NCBI RefSeq assembly: GCF_001488575.1
Contig: NZ_LN831302.1
Span: forward strand, 1,922,001 to 1,986,000
Source: Halobacterium hubeiense
GTDB taxonomy: Archaea > Halobacteriota > Halobacteria > Halobacteriales > Halobacteriaceae
DNA: 64,000 bases
Direction: 5' to 3'
Each line of letters opens with the position of its first letter. Position 1 is the first letter of the stretch. Made by a program: the position numbers and the translations under genes. Below are positions 1,804 to 12,073 of the stretch, piece after piece. The notes below the pieces were generated by a model. It was not told the origin of the DNA, ran no database searches, and saw nothing but the letters and a program-made list of their open reading frames with translations.

Positions 1804-2664
1804 ATGTCTGTCACGCAGTCCGTCGCCGCCGCGAGGTCCCGCACCTCGTGGCTCGGCGCCGTCAGTCTCGTCGCGTTCCTCGCGCTGTCCGCCTACGTCT
1901 TCAGCACCGGCGAAGCCCGGAAGCTACTGGGCATCGCGTGGGTCGCGTTCGCCGCGATGGCCGGCGCCGCCGCAGTCGGCGCGCGCGCCAGCACCGATCA
2001 CCCCACCGGGCTCGTCTGGGGGTACGGCCTCGCCAGCGGCGCGATGGTCGCCAGCTCCGCCGCGTTCCTCGTCCCGCAGGCCATCGGCTACGCCGCCAAG
2101 CCCGGCGGCTTCGGCATCGCCGCCGGCATCCTCGTCGGCTTCGGCGCCCACACCATCGGCCACCTCGTCACGCACCGCGACCTCCCGCTGGACCGCACGT
2201 CCGCGGAGCTGGCCGCGCACTCGCTGACCGCCGGCTCCATCATCGGCGTCGTCTACACCGCGATGCCCGACCTCGGCCCGCTGCTCGGCCTCGCCATCGT
2301 CTCCCACAAGGGGCCGGCGGGCTACGCCGCCGCGCGCCGGCTCACCGCGCAGGGCCGCTCCCCGATGATGCTGTTGCTCCCCTCCGCGGGCGTCGGCATC
2401 GCCGCGCTCGTCGTCACCATCTTCTCGTTCCCCACGGGCGCCACGTTCCGCGCCGTCCTCTTCGGGTTCGCCGCCGGCATCTTCCTCCACGTCGCGATGG
2501 ACTTCCTCCCCGAGTGCGAGACCGGCAGCGAGGTCCACGCCGCCGCCACCCGCGGCCTCGACGACCACGACCACGGCGTCCTCGACCGCCTCCGCCTGCA
2601 CGCCGTCGCCTCCACCGCGCTCGGCGGCGTCGCGGTCGCCAGCGCGTGGCTGCTGTTGCAGTAG
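1804..2664 (+). CDS. ZIP family divalent metal transporter
   Basis: 286 residues, almost entirely hydrophobic with about eight predicted membrane segments. The central motifs HSLTAGSIIG and SHKGPAGYAA match the conserved fourth and fifth ZIP helices whose His residues bind metal. A histidine-containing loop (DDHDHGV) precedes the last helix. ZIP proteins move Zn2+, Fe2+ or similar ions into the cytoplasm; the metal here is not determinable. The promoter is the AT-rich tract at about 1777-1800. The gene ends one base before the end of the convergent lipoprotein gene. Confidence 0.85.
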   Translation: MSVTQSVAAARSRTSWLGAVSLVAFLALSAYVFSTGEARKLLGIAWVAFAAMAGAAAVGARASTDHPTGLVWGYGLASGAMVASSAAFLVPQAIGYAAKPGGFGIAAGILVGFGAHTIGHLVTHRDLPLDRTSAELAAHSLTAGSIIGVVYTAMPDLGPLLGLAIVSHKGPAGYAAARRLTAQGRSPMMLLLPSAGVGIAALVVTIFSFPTGATFRAVLFGFAAGIFLHVAMDFLPECETGSEVHAAATRGLDDHDHGVLDRLRLHAVASTALGGVAVASAWLLLQ

Positions 2665-4220: not shown

Positions 4221-4289
4221 TCAGGCGTACTCGCGCCACCGGCTCCCGCACTCCTGGCACTTGCAAAAGTGTGGCTCAGAGACTTCAAC
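4221..4289 (-). pseudogene. Displaced TFS C-terminal fragment (probable attL side)
   Basis: On the minus strand an open stretch ends in SEPHFCKCQECG then SRWREYA and a TGA stop at 4221-4223. The TFS gene at 10347 ends FFKCKSCG then HRWRDYS. The zinc-ribbon cysteines, the RW and the Tyr align codon for codon, with roughly 70 percent nucleotide identity over 36 nt and the longest exact block CAAGTGC. The left copy uses GC-ending codons (CGC GAG TAC GCC), as in the host chromosome. The right copy uses CGA GAT TAC AGC TAA, more like the element. I read the left copy as the original chromosomal end of TFS. Confidence 0.65.
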
Positions 4290-4510
4290 TTATAAAGATT
4301 TCCCAATGCTTTAGTAGTGGATGTCTTTTGGGCTTCACCTTACGTAATCCGTCCCGACGACATCATGCGATTTCGGTATCGCATACGGCAGGCCACTACA
4401 TTTCTGGCAGGACCATAGTATTTCTTGCACCATTGGTTCAAGGAGAACTAAGTAGGTCTGCGAGAAATGTAGATGTAGAGCCTAAAACGCGGTTACGGGG
4501 TTTTCAACCC

Positions 4511-5689
4511 ATGAGTAAGCCAAACGATAAATTGGACGGTAGTGGCAACGCTGACTTAAAAGAAAGTCAAGCGCAGGAGGACTTGTGCGATTTTCTGTCT
4601 GAGCGAAGCGAGCTTGTCGTCTCCTTCGAGGAACCAGACGACGGGCGAAACCGTCGCCACGATTGCCTGCCTGTCGCCCGAACGGCGGACGGAGATAAGG
4701 CAGACGTGAGCGATTTCCCCAGCGGGAAGAACGACGGTCGAGGGAATTTCAGCAAGTCCACTTACACACGTTATCGAGACGTGGTGAATGACTTCCTCCA
4801 AACGCAAGACGTGAGCGACCTTATGGAGGTTGAACCTCGGGACATCAACCGCTGGAATCAACTACTCCAACGACGCGACTACGCCCGGACCACCCGTGAC
4901 GGGAAACTCGAAACTCTGGAAGTGTTCTTCAAGTGGGCAGAATCAGAGTGGCGCGCGCCTCGTGGCGATAAGCAGTTGAGCGAGACAATCATCCGAAAGC
5001 GTGATGATTTGGATGTGAGTGGAGACGAGAAATCACGGGCAGGCGACGACAATCACCGTATCTCGACTAAGCGAGCAGAGAAGATAGCTGGGCACTTGGC
5101 GAAACATCAGTACGCCTCTCGCCAGATGATTGAGTTTCTGCTAATCTACCACGTCGGGATACGAAAATCTGGGCTTCTGTCCATCAACTGTGATGACGTA
5201 AAGCCACGGAAGGGAATCATTCAGATTCGCAATCGACCGGAGGAAACTGGGGTTCGTCTCAAGCGAGGGAACAACGGCGAACGTGACGTGAATATCGCCA
5301 GTGGTGTCATGAGTGTCGTCACTGACTACATAGAAGAGAATCGGACACAACCGAAGGACGGCAGTGATGCGTTACTTACGTCATGGGCCGGGCGCATCGA
5401 CGACTCAACTCTGTACCGGGATATTACAGGGTTGACGAAGTGTGGAGAGTGTACTGACGACGACGGTAACTCCCTCGTCAACCAGAACGCAAGCGACTGT
5501 CCCGAGTCTATCGGTTGCCACGACTTGCGACGTGTAGCAATCACCCGAATGCGGGACGAAGGAGTCTCGTGGGACACGATTAGCGGACGAGTAAATGCAA
5601 CTGTCCAAATGCTCAAAGACCACTACGATTCCCCCACTCACTCACAGGCGGCAGACCGCCGTAAGGAGGAGATATTGAACGCCTTGTAG
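4511..5689 (+). CDS. Tyrosine recombinase / integrase
   Basis: 392 residues from the ATG at 4511; the frame is open far upstream, but that part is antisense to the lipoprotein gene. The N-terminal ~110 residues are charged and not conserved. A SAM-like DNA-binding segment (about 95-160, STYTRYRDVVNDFL onward) is followed by the catalytic domain with Arg218 (GIRKSGL), His337 and Arg340 (HDLRR) and the nucleophile Tyr372 (KDHYDSPT). Cysteine pairs in KCGECTDDD and SDCPESIGC (about residues 315-336) resemble the zinc insertion of many haloarchaeal integrases. It sits next to the left border and reads inward. It most likely catalyses integration at the TFS 3' end. Confidence 0.92.
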   Translation: MSKPNDKLDGSGNADLKESQAQEDLCDFLSERSELVVSFEEPDDGRNRRHDCLPVARTADGDKADVSDFPSGKNDGRGNFSKSTYTRYRDVVNDFLQTQDVSDLMEVEPRDINRWNQLLQRRDYARTTRDGKLETLEVFFKWAESEWRAPRGDKQLSETIIRKRDDLDVSGDEKSRAGDDNHRISTKRAEKIAGHLAKHQYASRQMIEFLLIYHVGIRKSGLLSINCDDVKPRKGIIQIRNRPEETGVRLKRGNNGERDVNIASGVMSVVTDYIEENRTQPKDGSDALLTSWAGRIDDSTLYRDITGLTKCGECTDDDGNSLVNQNASDCPESIGCHDLRRVAITRMRDEGVSWDTISGRVNATVQMLKDHYDSPTHSQAADRRKEEILNAL

Positions 5690-5704
5690 TGTTCTCTCAT
5701 TAGT

Positions 5705-5956
5705 TCAGCCTTGGCCTGATTCCCAGAGGATATCGTACAGTCGGTGTGCAAATGCACCGCCCACGGCTAATTTAAAGACTTCGGCTAAATCATAAGCAAT
5801 CTGGGTAATGGCTGGCGTTAGTATATAAATGGCTGGTGTTGAGTAGGCATTTATAAGCCAAAACACAATGGGTATAGTTTCTGGAACGGCAATAGAGGTC
5901 CTAAGGAGGGTGTAGAGGGCAAATATGAATGTACTATATAAAACCTCACCGTACAC
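5705..5956 (-). CDS. Small hydrophobic membrane protein
   Basis: 83 residues from a GTG at 5956. It is mostly apolar with two or three likely membrane helices (about residues 8-25, 28-50 and 58-75) and a short polar tail HRLYDILWESGQG. It ends 15 nt from the convergent integrase. Codon use is AT-rich like the rest of the element. No family recognised. A TATA-like stretch (TTTTATATAG) lies inside its first codons, so the true start could be a later one. Confidence 0.5.
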   Translation of the reverse strand: MYGEVLYSTFIFALYTLLRTSIAVPETIPIVFWLINAYSTPAIYILTPAITQIAYDLAEVFKLAVGGAFAHRLYDILWESGQG

Positions 5957-6261
5957 TTGACGGCGGAGTGCTTTTGTGTGATTATTATTCCCGGAACTGA
6001 ACAGACCGCCGCGCTTCAGGGACTGCCGTGCCGAGCCCCGTCACTCTCGACACGGTGGAGAACCAGTTTGACCGAATCCGGACGGGCCACCATTAATCCT
6101 GTGTAGCTCTGCTATCGGCATAAGCGTTCCGGGCAGGGTAACACCCCACATCTCGTCCAATCTTCAGCAACTCGTGATATCCTTACATACGTAGTCATCC
6201 TCTCTACGCAAAAACTGGGATAACTATACGAAAGTGGATGGCAGAGCAGTCGAGGTTGGTT
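5957..6261. other. Gene-free stretch inside the element
   Basis: About 305 nt between two minus-strand genes. Only very short open frames occur, including a nine-codon ATG frame at 6238 that is half of the inverted repeat described separately. Composition is mixed, with a GC-rich part at about 6000-6090. I see no tRNA or convincing hairpin here. Confidence 0.5.
6224..6257 (+). repeat. Inverted repeat, left copy (diverged copy of the orphan gene's own start region)
   Basis: Plus-strand 6238-6257 (ATGGCAGAGCA, three bases, GAGGTT) matches minus-strand 7080-7061 at 17 of 20 positions. The similarity extends upstream through TATACG and AAA-TG with small gaps. The two copies bracket the coding region of the orphan gene in opposite orientation. 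Confidence 0.6.
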
Positions 6262-7086
6262 CTACGCTAAGCGGCGAAGGTATGGCGTTAATCGCTGGTA
6301 GATGGTTTCCGCTCGCCGCTGTTGTCCAGCGTCTATTGGCCATTCACTCTCATCCCATTTGGGCTGATACATCCCCGAACTGAGAATCTCGTTGGTATAT
6401 CCGTCGTCTTTCGTGCCTTTGAGCTTGGAGACATACATCTTCTCTTTCGCCTCTTCGAAGATTTTCAGTCCTTTGAGATTCGTCGGGGGGTTCCCACCAC
6501 TGAATTCTTGGCTTGAAACCTCCGTAGCCAGCTCGTTCAGTGCCCGAGCGATATCTGAGTCGGTATCAAACTCTTCGTCGTTTGCTCCGAATCGAAACAC
6601 GGTGATTTCGTCACGGTCATCATAGAACCACTCCATCGTCTCTTGACTGAATTCGTCAAAGGTGTAGTTGTTCTCTACCTCTACACCAGTTCTCTCGCCG
6701 ATAAACTGGGGAATCCAGTGCTTTATTAGGCCGCGTTCAGACTCGTAAGCGAATTGTCCGTTCTTGAAATAGAACACCAGTGGCCTCACGGGCTGGTCGT
6801 CTGGTGCGACTTTTAGGTCATCCCCATCTCGAACTGTGGCGCTGTTCTCCTTATCAGATACGTAGGTAAATTGGCAGAAGGAGTATTCGTCATGTGAGTC
6901 GCTGTAGTAGGAGTTTCTCCCCTTCTCTTCGAGAGAGACAGGGTCTTCTCCCTCGACGATAGTTTTCTTCGTTCGTTCTCTCCATGTGTCATCAATTGCG
7001 TTGTGGAGTTCCTCAGGAGTCGGAAGCTCATCATCCGGGAGGTCAATGCTGCCAAACCGAAACCTCATTTGCTCTGCCATGTTCAT
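6262..7086 (-). CDS. Orphan acidic protein of the integrated element
   Basis: 274 residues from the ATG at 7086. That start is chosen because a good TATA box (GGTTTATAAG, 7117-7108) is centred 26 nt upstream, fitting a leaderless transcript; the ATG at 7122 would lie upstream of the transcription start. The protein is soluble and acidic. It has a central aromatic-rich part (LVFYFKNGQFAYE, then KHWIPQFIGERTGV), an alpha-helical part near ARALNELATEVSSQEF and a basic C-terminus (RRAETIYQRLTPYLRRLA). I do not recognise a family and assign no function. Its position among accessory genes makes a role in element biology or defence possible, but that is only context. Confidence 0.75.
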   Translation of the reverse strand: MNMAEQMRFRFGSIDLPDDELPTPEELHNAIDDTWRERTKKTIVEGEDPVSLEEKGRNSYYSDSHDEYSFCQFTYVSDKENSATVRDGDDLKVAPDDQPVRPLVFYFKNGQFAYESERGLIKHWIPQFIGERTGVEVENNYTFDEFSQETMEWFYDDRDEITVFRFGANDEEFDTDSDIARALNELATEVSSQEFSGGNPPTNLKGLKIFEEAKEKMYVSKLKGTKDDGYTNEILSSGMYQPKWDESEWPIDAGQQRRAETIYQRLTPYLRRLA

Positions 7087-7100
7087 TTCCGTATAAGAGG
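7061..7100 (-). repeat. Inverted repeat, right copy (covers the start codon of the orphan gene)
   Basis: Partner of the repeat at 6224-6257, read on the minus strand. It includes TATACGGAAATGAAC, the ATG start codons at 7086 and 7080, and the first codons of the orphan gene. Confidence 0.6.
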
Positions 7101-7107
7101 CTGACAG

Positions 7108-7117
7108 CTTATAAACC
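7108..7117 (-). promoter_or_regulatory. TATA box of the orphan gene
   Basis: GGTTTATAAG on the minus strand, centred 26 nt before the ATG at 7086, the usual haloarchaeal spacing for a leaderless transcript. This decides the start codon of the downstream gene. Confidence 0.6.
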
Positions 7118-7272
7118 TTCATTAACCATAGTGAAAGTATAAACGCAGTACGGCAGAGGGGCCGAATTCGAATCTCCTATATAGGCTTATCGAGCGGACT
7201 ACTGAGAACTCAATTGCTCACGCAATGGCGACTGCACATCACAAGGTCAATCGGGAGTAGTCGCACGTATTG

Positions 7273-7527
7273 TTAATCAAGCCGTGGGTCCGTCTCCCTC
7301 TCACCGCGAAGCCATTTCCTCATCTCAGTTTCCAGAGCTTCACCGGATAGTCCTTCAGGGTCGTCAGGGTCGACTCCCATGCGTCGATGCAGCTCATCTT
7401 GCTTGTCGGACGTAGATGCTAATTCATCAAGCGCATCCCTAAGCACTTCTCGAATCCGCTCGTCGTCGTACTCTTCAAGCTCTTGCGCTGTTTCGTCAGA
7501 AACCGTCACTTCGTATACTTCGCTCAT
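7273..7527 (-). CDS. Small acidic protein, partner of an RHH-like gene
   Basis: 84 residues starting MSEVYEVTVSDETAQELEEYDDERIREVLRD. A short beta strand followed by helices is suggested, then a glycine/proline-rich middle (DDPEGLSGEALETE) and a charged end. Its ATG overlaps the TGA of the upstream gene (ATGA), so the two are translationally coupled. The arrangement of two tiny co-transcribed genes downstream of a palindromic operator resembles toxin-antitoxin or regulator modules, but no toxin fold is recognisable. Function unknown. Confidence 0.65.
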   Translation of the reverse strand: MSEVYEVTVSDETAQELEEYDDERIREVLRDALDELASTSDKQDELHRRMGVDPDDPEGLSGEALETEMRKWLRGERETDPRLD

Positions 7528-7682
7528 TCGTCCGACTCCTCGTATTCTGCAATCGTCTCTTCAGCCATGAGTCGGACCATCGCGCCTCGACTGATTCTTG
7601 ACTCGCTCCCGAATCTGGTGCGAGTAGCTTCCTTGAGCGCAGACAATTCCTCAGACGTGAGATTTAGCATAGTTCCAGTCAT
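7524..7682 (-). CDS. Ribbon-helix-helix-like DNA-binding protein (putative)
   Basis: 52 residues from the ATG at 7682. The core is MLNLTSEELSALKEAT, RTRFGSESR, ISRGAMVRLMAEETI. The strand-helix-turn-helix pattern with SRGA at the start of the second helix is typical of short CopG/MetJ-type repressors. It is followed by the acidic partner with a 4-nt overlap and preceded within 10 nt by a perfect 8-bp inverted repeat, a likely autoregulatory operator. Family assignment is by pattern only, since there are too few residues for certainty. Confidence 0.6.
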   Translation of the reverse strand: MTGTMLNLTSEELSALKEATRTRFGSESRISRGAMVRLMAEETIAEYEESDE

Positions 7683-7691
7683 GTTCTCTCA

Positions 7692-7714
7692 ACCAGTGTT
7701 CAGAGTACACTGGT
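7692..7714. promoter_or_regulatory. Palindromic operator upstream of the RHH-like gene
   Basis: Perfect inverted repeat ACCAGTGT (7692-7699) and ACACTGGT (7707-7714) with a 7-nt spacer, starting 10 nt upstream of the ATG at 7682. It overlaps the expected core promoter of that gene (T-rich tract at about 7713-7720 on the minus strand). This is the expected site for autorepression. Confidence 0.55.
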
Positions 7715-7730
7715 AAAAACTCTCAAAAAA

Positions 7731-7747
7731 TGGAGTTATGTACTCCA
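7731..7747. repeat. Second palindrome TGGAGT-n5-ACTCCA, partly repeated at 7855-7865
   Basis: TGGAGT (7731-7736) and ACTCCA (7742-7747) form a short inverted repeat. Its right part, TATGTACTCCA (7737-7747), recurs exactly at 7855-7865. Possibly binding sites for an element-encoded regulator; low confidence. Confidence 0.35.
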
Positions 7748-8255
7748 CTGCAACCCTACAGGTACGTTCTATGACCAAGCGGAACAGATGCTTGAATAGA
7801 TTCGAGCTGAACTACTGTAGCCAGAATTCCCAGATATCTGACTACATACAATACTATGTACTCCAGCCACTTAAATGTTTTGGTTATTTGACATTATCTC
7901 TGATATCATCTCAGTTTGCCTGATGAGATGGAGCCACGGTCTTCTCGCGGTTGGACGAAATTCGCTAAGAGGAACGACTAAGACATATATAAAAAATTCT
8001 CCTGCCATCAAATCCGGTGAGGAGACCAGCCACTCTGATAACCAATATAATATTATACATCAAAAGATTTAAGTATCTGGAACACATAGTAATTAACAAG
8101 GCAGTTATACTAATCGGACGCTCATCTACGCGAGTTTGATAAGCAGGAGTGCGCTGTGGCACTACCCTACAAGACATTCTACTATTAGTGCCGCAACTAC
8201 TTAAAACTTTTGACAGATTCTCCTGCTTGCATCCGTCTTCTGCCTATGATTTAGT
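7748..8255. other. AT-rich non-coding region upstream of the rep-like operon
   Basis: About 500 nt with the lowest GC in the window and no credible gene; the short open frames here have no coding character. It contains the perfect 12-bp palindrome TATAATATTATA at 8046-8057, several TATA-like tracts and repeated A/T runs. Because it lies directly upstream of the candidate replication gene, it is the best place for an origin, but no direct evidence of origin function is visible. Confidence 0.4.
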
Positions 8256-8378
8256 ATGCAAGCAGACGACCTACAGAAGAGTGAACGCACAGTAACAGAA
8301 ACATCTCTCACGGTGTCAGGGACAGCAGTCTGGGAAGTCCTCTGGGTCCTTCTCGTCGTGGCGGTGGTCCTGACATGA
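8256..8378 (+). CDS. 40-residue single-span membrane peptide
   Basis: ATG at 8256 to TGA at 8376-8378. A polar N-terminus (MQADDLQKSERTVTETSLTV) is followed by a hydrophobic segment VWEVLWVLLVVAVVLT that reaches the C-terminus, so a tail-anchored single membrane span is predicted. Its TGA overlaps the ATG of the next gene (ATGA), indicating coupled translation with the candidate replication protein. Function unknown. Confidence 0.6.
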   Translation: MQADDLQKSERTVTETSLTVSGTAVWEVLWVLLVVAVVLT

Positions 8379-9343
8379 GCGCTATTGCGTGCCTCCGAGA
8401 AGCGGCAGGTATCCTTGACGAGACAGACGTGACGATTGAATATGCGGACGTCGAGCCAGCCGATTTAATTACCCCACCGAATTCAAGGGTCGCACAATTC
8501 AAGCAAAATCTTGAACGATTACGACAAGAGAACGCTCCATACAAGCCAGAACATAATTATAGCCACTATCAAGCGAAGAAGAACTACGCTCAGGCGAAAG
8601 ACGTAGGCAGGTACTTCTGGCGTAACTACGAGGAGTTTACGACTGTCCACATAGTGAGAACGGCGGACGAGAATACCGCGCCTCTTGTGGAGCAAACTGA
8701 GGCTCTGACGCCAGAACTCTACGACCAGTCACGGCGTGGTTTGCTCAATCGCCTGTCTGGTGATTCTGCGAGGGTCGAAGTACTTGCGCCCAAATATCCT
8801 ACCCGTCCAAATGTAAGGGTCCGTACTCATGTGCATGAAGGCTACTGGATTCCGGGCCATCACGACGCAGAGAGATTCGAGCTACTGAGGGACAAGCATC
8901 ATGAGAAGGTGCCGGGTGCGACCAGCGTGAGTATCTCGGTTGAACACCATTCGGCTGACGATGGTCCGACAGTCGTCCAAGGGAAGGACCATGCACGCGG
9001 TGGTACGAGTAGGCTCCCGCACGAACTGGCTGGAGCGAATCAACCACTTATGCGCGTAGAGACAGACGCGCTCGACTTGCACGACTCCCGGGTACTCGAA
9101 TGGATGGCAGCACTCTCGGCAGGCTTAGAAGGCACGCAGAAGACGCGAGGCATGAGTTACTGGCGTGGGTGTAATACCTTCTCGAAGTACGCGGAGACGA
9201 TTGAGAACACTATGAGACGCCAAGCATACCGGGATTTGAAACGTTCTAAACTACCCTCTCAAATCCAAGAGCCTGAGTCGAACGTCATGCCAGAGCTTGA
9301 TGAACCAGAATCCCAACCTCTCAAACGGCCAGAGACCTCCTAA
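8375..9343 (+). CDS. Candidate HUH-type rolling-circle replication initiator
   Basis: 322 residues. Three segments are in the order expected of HUH endonucleases: FTTVHIVRTA (88-97), which could be motif I; HVHEGYW (152-158) with the His-x-His pair of motif II; and a tyrosine motif around Tyr262 (MSYWRGC) or Lys271-Tyr272 (SKYAE) as motif III. The N-terminal region is helical with SHYQAKKNYAQAK. These patterns plus the integrase suggest a replication protein of a small haloarchaeal plasmid or virus that nicks DNA and starts rolling-circle synthesis. The assignment is from motif spacing only; it could be an unrelated conserved element protein. Confidence 0.5.
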   Translation: MSAIACLREAAGILDETDVTIEYADVEPADLITPPNSRVAQFKQNLERLRQENAPYKPEHNYSHYQAKKNYAQAKDVGRYFWRNYEEFTTVHIVRTADENTAPLVEQTEALTPELYDQSRRGLLNRLSGDSARVEVLAPKYPTRPNVRVRTHVHEGYWIPGHHDAERFELLRDKHHEKVPGATSVSISVEHHSADDGPTVVQGKDHARGGTSRLPHELAGANQPLMRVETDALDLHDSRVLEWMAALSAGLEGTQKTRGMSYWRGCNTFSKYAETIENTMRRQAYRDLKRSKLPSQIQEPESNVMPELDEPESQPLKRPETS

Positions 9344-9541
9344 TTCGGGCAGTTAGCCAGTCACTCTAATGTCGACATCTGTTAAATAGCTTGAGATGGC
9401 TGAAATCAGTAGTCTTAGGACGTCCATGAGCATTATGCGAGAAAGCTCTGATTGGGATAATTCAGAGAGTTAACCGGGTGGGGAATTCTGGAATTCGTGG
9501 AAGTAGAGGAAATTGTTGCCTATAAGGGCGGTGTTGGGATA

Positions 9542-10183
9542 CTATGAATTACCGTCTCTATTCTCTATGCCACGCATTTGGTCTTCTGGAATGTTGCTGA
9601 ATTCCTCTTGAATTAGCTTTTCTCGTGCGATAGTGAGCTCGACGATAGTGTTCACAAGGTCGAACAATCTAAGCGCAGTCTCTCGATTATCACGTTCATC
9701 CATCTCTCCCGGATGAACGAATTCATTCCCGACAACACGCACAGAATCGAGTGCTTGTTGTACTCGTTCATCAATGCGACCTTCTTCCACAAGGTCGCCA
9801 ATCATGTTGTGTAGCGTCCGGTTATCTTCCCCAGTAAGTTCTCTCGCTAATTTTTCCATCGCCAACCGAAGTAGAGCTGCTGCTGCTCTGGGGGATTTAT
9901 TTACCACTTTACGAGCTTCATTAAAGTCTTCCTCTACCTCGTCGGGCATGTCCTCCGTGGGAAGTGGCGCCGGACTCCCTTCTGGGTAAACCATCTCTTC
10001 ACCAACCCATAGGGTATAGTCTTGGCAATGGGCACATTTCCCGATTCTTCCGTTGAGGATTTGCTGGCGGCCGATAGAGGACGCATATACGTCAATATTC
10101 GACCATGACTGGTTAGCATAGACCTCGCAGTGTGGGCAGTGAAATGCGCTTGCATCAACTTCTGGAGGGATATACTCCGACAT
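9542..10183 (-). CDS. DUF4145 domain protein with N-terminal zinc ribbon
   Basis: 213 residues from the ATG at 10183 (MSEYIPPEVD). Cys16/Cys19 and Cys50/Cys53 form a zinc ribbon. Residues about 85-190 carry the DUF4145 pattern: RAAAALLRLAMEKLARELTG, then MIGDLVEEGRID and RVVGNEFVHPGE. DUF4145 helical domains occur alone and attached to restriction or other defence enzymes. The biochemical role is unknown. It is the last gene of the element before TFS. Codon use is of the element type. The domain call is fairly sure; a defence role is inference. Confidence 0.8.
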   Translation of the reverse strand: MSEYIPPEVDASAFHCPHCEVYANQSWSNIDVYASSIGRQQILNGRIGKCAHCQDYTLWVGEEMVYPEGSPAPLPTEDMPDEVEEDFNEARKVVNKSPRAAAALLRLAMEKLARELTGEDNRTLHNMIGDLVEEGRIDERVQQALDSVRVVGNEFVHPGEMDERDNRETALRLFDLVNTIVELTIAREKLIQEEFSNIPEDQMRGIENRDGNS

Positions 10184-10346
10184 ACTATCGGCCACTCCCT
10201 GAGACCATGTGACATTATCGGTCTATCGCCCGAATTAGGTGGTTTGAAGTGCCTACAAGCCGTTATTTCACTTGGACAGATTACGATGCAATCTTGCAGG
10301 CAAGTCCTAACCCTAATCCTCCGAAATCAGGGTTCTAAGGCGAGTA

Positions 10347-10661
10347 TTAGCTGTAATCTCGCCAGCGGTGGCCGCAGGACTTGCACTTGAAGAAGCGCGT
10401 CGGCGGCTCGTCGGCGCTCCCGGTCTGCTTGATGGTGTACCACGCCTCGTCGTGGCCGCACTCCGGGCACGTCTCCTCGGCGGTGGGCTTGCCCTCGAAG
10501 TTGGCGTCCTCGCTGGTCTCGATGACGTCGCTGGTGTCCTGGGACGCCGTCGTGACGAACTCGCCGTCGTCGCCGGCGGGCTCGGTGTGCCCGCAGCCCG
10601 AACACACGAGTTCGTCGTCCTGCTTGTGCATCATCGACCCGCACTCGTCGCAGAACTGCAT
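10347..10661 (-). CDS. tfs: Transcription factor S (TFIIS-like RNA polymerase cleavage factor)
   Basis: 104 residues from the ATG at 10661 (MQFCDECGSMMHK). It has an N-terminal zinc ribbon (CDECG and CSGCG) and a C-terminal TFIIS-type ribbon (CPECGHDEAW and KCKSCGHRW). TFS stimulates cleavage of backtracked RNA by archaeal RNA polymerase. The catalytic acidic pair of TFIIS is represented by the DE of GSADEPPTRFF. The last codons (CGA GAT TAC AGC TAA) look more AT-rich than the body, consistent with a 3' end supplied by the adjacent element. It lies 7 nt downstream of the preceding minus-strand gene. Confidence 0.9.
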   Translation of the reverse strand: MQFCDECGSMMHKQDDELVCSGCGHTEPAGDDGEFVTTASQDTSDVIETSEDANFEGKPTAEETCPECGHDEAWYTIKQTGSADEPPTRFFKCKSCGHRWRDYS

Positions 10662-10668
10662 ACCCGAG

Positions 10669-11109
10669 CTAGGGCTCGTCTCCGGAAAAATCACTCGCCT
10701 CGTTCTCCTCGCGGGCCGCCACGACGGGGCAGTCCACGACGCGGAAGTGGTCGGTGTCGGCCTCCGCCTCGATGGTCGTGCCCTCGTGGCCGCAGGCCGT
10801 CTCCGGCGGGTCCGAGAAGTGCTCGCAGCCCTGACAGAGGCGCTTCTCGACGACCGTCACGTCGCGGTCGAGTGCCTCGGTCTTGGCGTCGGCGCTCGCC
10901 GACTCCGCGACGCCCGCGGCGTCCGCGACCGACTCGTCGGCCGACGACGAGAGCTGGTCCCAGACCTCCTCCTCGTCCACGCTGCCGACGTCGACGTCCG
11001 TAAACAGCTCGTCGAAGTCGTCGTCGGGCTCGGCTTCGCGGCTGCGCTCGACGTCCTCCCGGAGGTCCGCCAGCGGCTCGCGCTCCTCGTCGTCGCGGTC
11101 GTCACTCAT
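10669..11109 (-). CDS. Haloarchaeal acidic zinc-motif protein of unknown function
   Basis: 146 residues from the ATG at 11109. The first two thirds are very acidic and low in complexity (DVGSVDEEEVWDQLSSSADE). The C-terminal part holds CQGCEHFSDPPETACGH and later DCPVV, a possible single metal site. Its start overlaps the stop of the upstream coiled-coil protein by 8 nt, so the two form an operon leading into tfs. No function known to me. Confidence 0.7.
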   Translation of the reverse strand: MSDDRDDEEREPLADLREDVERSREAEPDDDFDELFTDVDVGSVDEEEVWDQLSSSADESVADAAGVAESASADAKTEALDRDVTVVEKRLCQGCEHFSDPPETACGHEGTTIEAEADTDHFRVVDCPVVAAREENEASDFSGDEP

Positions 11110-12073
11110 CGCGCTCACCCGCGGGCCGGTCGGCCGCGCTCCCGAACTCGTCGGCGGCGTCGCCCTCGACGCGGTCCGGGTGGACGACCTCCGGGCCGTC
11201 CTCGTCGCCGCTGTCGCCGCCTTCGGCCATCGCTTCCAGCGTCTCACCGTCCGTGCCGAGCCACGATTCGTCGTCGAGCGCGCCCTCGTCGGTCGCCAGC
11301 GCGGGCGCCGACCCCGTCACGAGCACGTCCGTGCCGAACCAGCCGGGGTTGGCCTCCACCTCCTCGAAGGTCGCCGCGCAGAACGGGCACTCCGGGGCGG
11401 TCAACAGCGCGACGGTCACCGTCTCGCCGCAGTCCCCGCAGTCGGCCTCGGTGACGCCCGCGACGTTCGCCTCCCGCTTGAGGCGCTCGGCGCGCTCGCG
11501 GCGCGCCTCGGCGGCCGCCAGCGAGGCCACCGAGTCCCGCATCGACACCACCGCCGTCGCCAGCGTCGCCGTCTTCCGGTCGAGGTCCCGGGTCTCGTCG
11601 CGGAGGTACGTCAACACCTCCTCGAAGTTGTCGAAGCCCGCGTCCACGCGCTCGCGGAGCCGCCGCGCCGCCTCCGAGACCTCCGCGACCTCGGCCTGCG
11701 CGTCGCGGGCGGCGTTCAGCGCCTCCTCGGCCTGCGAGGAGAGGTCGGGGTGGTCGTGGTCCTTCGGGGCCTTCGCGTCGGCGTCGCGCTTGACCTGGAT
11801 GACGCGCTCACGGACGTCCTGAATCTTCTCGTCGAACTCGCTGTCCACGGCCTCGACGTCCGCGCGCAGGTCGTCCTCGACGGCAGCAAGGCGCTCGTCG
11901 AGGTCGTCGCTGGTGACGACGTCGGTCTGCTCGTCGGCCTCGCGGTACGCCGCCAGCACTCCTTTCAGGAACTCCTCGGGCGGAACGCCGAGGTCGTCAG
12001 CGCGCGCCGACAGCCACGACGCAACGGGCCCCTCCAGCGTCGTCTCGACCGCGTCCGACGTGCCATCGGCCAT
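11102..12073 (-). CDS. Coiled-coil zinc-ribbon protein of unknown function
   Basis: 323 residues. After a short N-terminal helical part, residues about 55-190 are a long charged helix typical of coiled coils (VEDDLRADVEAVDSEFDEKIQ and following). A zinc ribbon follows (DCGDCG ... CPFCAATFEE), then an acidic disordered tail. It is co-transcribed with the next two minus-strand genes (8-nt overlap). The pattern suggests a multimeric scaffold or DNA/RNA-associated protein, but nothing catalytic is visible. Confidence 0.7.
   Translation of the reverse strand: MADGTSDAVETTLEGPVASWLSARADDLGVPPEEFLKGVLAAYREADEQTDVVTSDDLDERLAAVEDDLRADVEAVDSEFDEKIQDVRERVIQVKRDADAKAPKDHDHPDLSSQAEEALNAARDAQAEVAEVSEAARRLRERVDAGFDNFEEVLTYLRDETRDLDRKTATLATAVVSMRDSVASLAAAEARRERAERLKREANVAGVTEADCGDCGETVTVALLTAPECPFCAATFEEVEANPGWFGTDVLVTGSAPALATDEGALDDESWLGTDGETLEAMAEGGDSGDEDGPEVVHPDRVEGDAADEFGSAADRPAGERDE

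Follow-up and report, generated by a model that had tools for sequence, protein, structure and literature searches.

A small integrative element at the 3' end of the TFS gene of Halobacterium hubeiense, with related integrases at TFS in four other haloarchaeal genera

The replacement of a gene's 3' end by an integrating element is known from bacteria, where e14 and phage 21 enter icd, a conserved housekeeping target, and carry a near-synonymous end that replaces the original one. In archaea, integration into the 3' ends of protein genes was described for 14 of 68 mapped thaumarchaeal elements (PMC6563490), and further targets of this kind are given elsewhere (PMC8371274). Among the former, NitEve-E2 lies in the 3'-distal part of a Zn-finger gene, has a short att of 13 bp, replaces the gene end and supplies a new stop codon, with 8 nt being swapped for non-homologous sequence (PMC6563490). 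Classical, non-splitting tyrosine integrases with a SAM-like N-terminal domain are found in SNJ2 and other pleolipovirus-type systems of haloarchaea, and a 7-bp overlap between inverted arms is canonical for tyrosine recombinases, as described for tRNA targets (PMC8371274). We found no report naming the TFS gene as an integration site, although our coverage of the literature was incomplete.

We analyzed a window of 64 kb from the chromosome of H. hubeiense (the whole stretch, NZ_LN831302.1, positions 1,922,001 to 1,986,000), in which the gene of TFS, an RNA polymerase cleavage factor, adjoins an insert of 6126 bp measured core to core. We are highly confident that this insert is a small integrative element that entered the 3' end of the host's TFS through site-specific recombination and restored that gene. 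The original prediction, made from the window alone, had called a transcription-factor gene an unusual target for an archaeal integrase; 3' ends of protein genes are indeed unusual targets, but the cases cited above are precedents (PMC6563490, PMC8371274). The element resembles NitEve-E2 in its position in an archaeal protein gene, its short att and its supply of a new gene end with a stop codon, whereas the gene, the host phylum and the integrase are different, and the exchanged stretch of 36 nt, which encodes 11 conserved residues with a zinc ligand among them, gives way to a homologous, diverged end. The target of e14 and phage 21 is a bacterial metabolic enzyme, in contrast to the haloarchaeal cleavage factor. 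The integrase is of the same classical type as those of the SNJ2 group and shares their SAM-like N-terminal domain, but its identity to SNJ2-like viral integrases is only about 26-28%; in the single pair compared, it was 26.0% identical to SNJ2 over 84%, short of the family criterion, which asks for 30% identity or more across 60% of the protein (PMC8371274). Unlike in SNJ2 systems, the target is not a tRNA gene, and no virion gene was recognized among the element proteins scanned.

Two diverged TFS ends bracket the insert at the places where the original prediction had put them. The left end (4221-4268, minus strand) reads CKCQECGSRWREYA followed by a stop codon, and the right end belongs to an intact gene (10347-10661, minus strand) whose C-terminus reads CKSCGHRWRDYS before the stop and which matches the NCBIfam model TIGR01384 (TFS_arch). 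From the core onward, the left end (4221-4263) is CAAGTGC CAG GAG TGC GGG AGC CGG TGG CGC GAG TAC GCC TGA and the right end is CAAGTGC AAG TCC TGC GGC CAC CGC TGG CGA GAT TAC AGC TAA. They are identical at 30 of 43 nt from core to stop, and a match of at least 28/43 to the TFS end was not found in the rest of the window on either strand; the similarity of the left fragment is therefore not due to chance. In register, the longest exact match is CAAGTGC, and the originally reported length of 7 nt is thus correct. The G+C content is about 50% between the two copies and about 72% in the surroundings. The features of the locus are listed in Table 1.

Table 1. Features of the TFS locus and the inserted element in the window (positions of the 64-kb stretch).
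Feature	Position	Strand	Evidence or remark
Displaced host TFS 3' end, host half of attL	4221..4263	-	Core CAAGTGC at 4257-4263, then CAGGAG...GCCTGA
Element left end	4264..4300	-	TTATAA...CTKAGCCRCAMTYTTS up to the core; kept in 5/5 elements
Tyrosine recombinase (integrase), 392 aa, intact	4511..5689	+	PF00589, E=3.6e-9
Cargo protein, 286 aa	6262..7122	-	No family above cut-off
Small protein, 84 aa	7273..7527	-	ORF; no family above cut-off; overlaps 7524..7682
Small protein, 52 aa	7524..7682	-	ORF; no family match
322-aa protein	8375..9343	+	Homologues in two other elements, 48% and 31% identity
DUF4145 protein, PD-T7-4 anti-phage defence family	9542..10195	-	PF13643, E=3.2e-19; PADLOC PD-T7-4, E=1.8e-75
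Right-end motif AAGATTGCATCG	10284..10295	-	GATTGCATC invariant in 5/5 right ends
Element-supplied TFS 3' end, 11 codons KSCGHRWRDYS and stop, including the last zinc-ligand cysteine	10347..10382	-	Congener comparison; frame open
attR core CAAGTGC, inferred 7-bp overlap	10383..10389	-	In-register 7-nt match; dyad rank 1/80
Reconstituted TFS gene, 104 aa	10347..10661	-	TIGR01384, 78.5 bits vs cut-off 64.75

The TFS gene was present in all 13 genomes of the genus sample, and element sequence was absent from the TFS locus in 12 of 12 congeners. According to the original prediction, a relative lacking the insertion should have an uninterrupted TFS gene with the left type of end and the lipoprotein gene immediately after it, and this arrangement exists in L005 (genome G009). 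Its TFS gene ends KCQECGSRWREYA (QECGSRWREYA), and about 70 bp later follows a lipoprotein gene starting MRRRALLSSLAATTAALAGCA, the same gene that adjoins the left fragment in the window. The window sequence from the core through the lipoprotein gene aligned with L005 as a single block of 1,527 columns (79%) from the first base of the query, beginning inside the L005 TFS gene, and the other flank of the window insert (10695-12073) was 86% identical to the same L005 locus. In L004, L006, L007 and L015, TFS is directly followed by a transporter-like gene with 78-95% identity to window 1804-2664, which is one gene further out than the lipoprotein gene.

These congeners also tell the native end from the foreign one. 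In the 33 nt that follow the core, the displaced end matched L007 at 33 positions, L005 and L006 at 32, L008 at 31 and L004 at 29, whereas the end now in use matched the same five at only 21-24, the parental host ends being inferred from other species and not from the same strain. The displaced end thus resembles the host, while the end in use diverges from the congeners: the current TFS tail was brought in by the element, and the two window ends are only weakly alike because they had diverged before integration. The proposal that an element integrated at the end of TFS and exchanged its last codons is supported by the empty site of L005, by the foreign end in use and by integrases of the same clade beside TFS in four other genera. 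It had been left undecided whether the integration was old or the exchanged end already divergent; the second reading is correct, and the first was rejected because the displaced end is undecayed (29-33/33 against congeners, complete identity with L007). Third-position G+C was lower in the imported than in the displaced tail in four of the five elements described below (0.45-0.82 vs 0.64-1.0) and equal in G170. The reverse assignment, with the right copy as host original and the left copy as element-borne, might be suggested by congener L004, which ends RDYS-TAA like the right copy. We give it a negligible probability, as L004 itself is closer to the left copy (29/33) than to the right (24/33), L005 and L007 match the left copy at 32/33 and 33/33, and the elements of G110 and G170 have the same polarity as that of the window.

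The same comparison bears on whether integration took place at all. The genome contains two other TFS-like genes, and zinc ribbons resemble one another, which would suit a left fragment left behind by a duplicated or decayed TFS paralogue or another zinc-ribbon gene. However, the fragment begins at the core and is identical at 33/33 nt to the orthologous TFS 3' end of L007, it runs on, collinear with L005, into the lipoprotein gene, the paralogues of the genome end differently and lack the core, and the layout is repeated in four other genera. A paralogue remnant is therefore extremely improbable, and the collinear empty site refutes it. For site-specific integration at TFS, the core itself is informative. 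It covers the final base of a Phe codon, a Lys codon and the codon for cysteine three of the second zinc ribbon, whose fourth cysteine comes from the element. When 9-bp dyad arms with a 7-bp spacer were scored, the mean was highest at CAAGTGC (rank 1 of 80 offsets) for attL sites, attR sites (tied for rank 1) and 17 uninterrupted host genes; these sets are related, share sequences and are not independent, which makes the result supportive rather than proof. CAAGTGC is most likely the recombinase overlap and not a sign of decay. The two TFS paralogues have ATC-TGC and ACT-TGT at the corresponding position, and the lack of the core in them would explain why only this TFS was targeted. The cores of the G110 element differ at two positions (CAAATGT in attL, CAAGTGC in attR), so that either one core has drifted or recombination tolerated the mismatches; this counts against full 7-bp identity always being kept.

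Exact homology of 7 nt is too short for ordinary homologous recombination. Entry by this route or by a transposase, with the TFS ends as mere flanking homology, could draw on the similarity at both ends (30/43 nt), but only those 7 nt are exact, 5/5 elements have an intact tyrosine integrase at the same end, and the proteins of the window element included no identified transposase; we consider such an entry very improbable. The evidence instead favors site-specific recombination, for which we propose the following model. The tyrosine recombinase would recognize the conserved codons around F-F-K-C-x-E-C-G, and strands would be exchanged within the 7 bp C-AAG-TGC. The attP of a circular element would have carried a TFS-like 3' end downstream of the core, so that integration would join host TFS codons 1-93 to the last 11 codons and stop of the element, keep the second zinc ribbon complete, and leave the host's own last codons stranded beside the integrase gene, 6.1 kb away. 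The predicted rejoined host site is CTTCTT-CAAGTGC-CAGGAGTGC, and the predicted circle junction is CTTTTG-CAAGTGC-AAGTCC. We infer that the integrase is the agent, and the element may still be mobile today. The element half of attL contains AEPHxCKC, a faintly TFS-like stretch that can be compared with ADEPPTRFFKC and suggests that attP was derived from an old captured TFS end. The left-end motif (TTATAA...AGCCRCA) and the right-end GATTGCATC may be arm sites of the integrase, the motif at 10284..10295 (-) being a possible arm-type binding site.

Element DNA restored the TFS reading frame in the window, as the TIGR01384 match above cut-off indicates, and the intact TFS genes of all five elements end C-x-x-C-x-x-R-W-R-x-Y-x-stop. 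In an alignment to the solved zinc ribbon 1qyp, the C-x-x-C-G-H-x-W-R end corresponded to the conserved C-terminal part, and a tail that failed to restore this end would be expected to break the TFS protein. The tails are not all alike: G110 has KDCHNRW in place of KECGYRW. In this element-borne end (L065), which reads CKDCHNRW, another residue takes the place of the glycine that usually follows the last zinc cysteine. We regard it as quite unlikely that the element-borne tail alters RNA cleavage or polymerase rescue to the benefit of the element; if it did, the element would edit a core transcription factor at every integration.

The catalytic domain of the integrase scored 37.1 bits against the Pfam cut-off of 27.1 for PF00589. 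R218, H337-x-x-R340 and Y372 were invariant in an alignment of three members, and we take these to be the catalytic arginine, the HxxR motif and the tyrosine nucleophile from family knowledge. The integrase gene is intact and inside the element in 5/5 cases, unlike the split genes of SSV-type suicidal integration. Of the small proteins, the 84-aa protein may be paired with the overlapping 52-aa protein, which appears ribbon-helix-helix-like by eye. The 322-aa protein is a possible replication initiator: its homologue in L066 scored 22.8 bits, just under the cut-off of 23.0, with DUF1424 ("putative rep protein"), while the window protein had no DUF1424 match in the family search, no match in plasmids or phages, and an AlphaFold model with a pLDDT of 36. 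The region between the small genes and the 322-aa gene (7690-8380) is AT-rich, with about 41% G+C, and contains inverted repeats at 7852-7882/8061-8091 (31 nt, 84%) and 8060-8075/8198-8213 (16 nt, 94%); this region could be a replication origin. The element likely carries a defence gene, since the protein encoded at 9542-10195 (-) covers positions 1-208 of the 211 of the PADLOC PD-T7-4 model, and its role in archaea is a prediction. Among the elements scanned, only that of the window has this cargo. The gene lies directly beside the TFS junction. Cargo is variable among the elements, which span 3.6-6.1 kb; in the G477 element, L076:7826-8749 (-) encodes bacterial PH domains (bPH_3), unlike the cargo of the window. 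The proteins scanned included no recognizable virion gene; a small integrative element of the plasmid-like or satellite kind would fit better than a provirus.

The original prediction also raised the possibility of related integrases next to TFS in other genomes, and these are present in four other genera. Genome coverage was broad but sampled. Among 392 genomes searched across the order, the two closest integrases by far were those of G110 (90%) and G170 (81%), with the next below 40%; family-wide searches added G477 and G494 and gave no further member of the clade in the family of the window (26 genomes), that of G110 (170) or a fourth family (125). An alignment-based contig scan recovered two of the five, in Halarchaeum acidiphilum MH1-52-1 (taken as G170) and Halovenus salina JCM 30072, whose integrase is 73% identical to that of the window and whose coordinates agree with G494. 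A single-sequence integrase scan of genome contigs gave no match, a scan of viral contigs gave none either, and plasmids and phages had integrases of about 32% identity at most. In 5/5 elements, the displaced TFS end lies beside the integrase start and the intact TFS gene at the far end, in the same orientation, with core-to-core lengths of 6126 (window), 5408 (G110), 4139 (G170), 3616 (Halovenus) and 4177 bp (G477). None of the 27 next-best integrases retrieved (about 29-38% identity) had a TFS-like end within 1.5 kb. The left-end pattern, allowing one mismatch, matched only the three elements sampled in the 392 genomes and one unrelated one-mismatch site, and thus revealed no decayed remnants there. 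It also had 12 matches in viral contigs, none followed by a TFS end; most are one repeated palindrome, probably a terminator. The near-palindrome AGCCGCACTCTTGCAAGTGCGGCT, which recurs after an A run in metagenomic viral contigs L078-L084 and L086-L088, is probably such a terminator, unrelated to the TFS element.

Matching empty sites were found in relatives for the three elements for which they were sought: L005 for the window, L067 and L068 for G110, and L069 for G170. The displaced end of G110, KCKECGYRWREYN, matched each of its genus mates L067 and L068 at 31/33, whereas its TFS gene in use ends KCKDCHNRWREYN and matched them at 21/33; the gene that follows TFS in the mates was found beyond the displaced end, with one extra gene intervening. 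This extra gene is L065:951-1667 (-), between the displaced TFS end and the usual next gene. For G170, the displaced end agreed with that of L070 at 32/33 and with that of L069 at 31/33; beyond it, the DNA matches what follows TFS in L069. Each displaced end is therefore that of its own host, and the window, G110 and G170 represent at least three separate integrations.

The mechanism is known, and the TFS target and its dedicated integrase clade appear to be new; compared with the known systems, the target is a new one that is used repeatedly, and the replaced coding end is longer. This clade is found in five genera of three haloarchaeal families, and what it targets is not a tRNA gene but that of a conserved RNA polymerase cleavage factor. 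The insert is a small carrier of probable defence cargo, and the core site C-AAG-TGC with its dyad arms is a possible chromosomal landing site for haloarchaeal genetics. Furthermore, a mobile element can swap the last codons of a core transcription gene, and TFS tails are thus not always vertically inherited.
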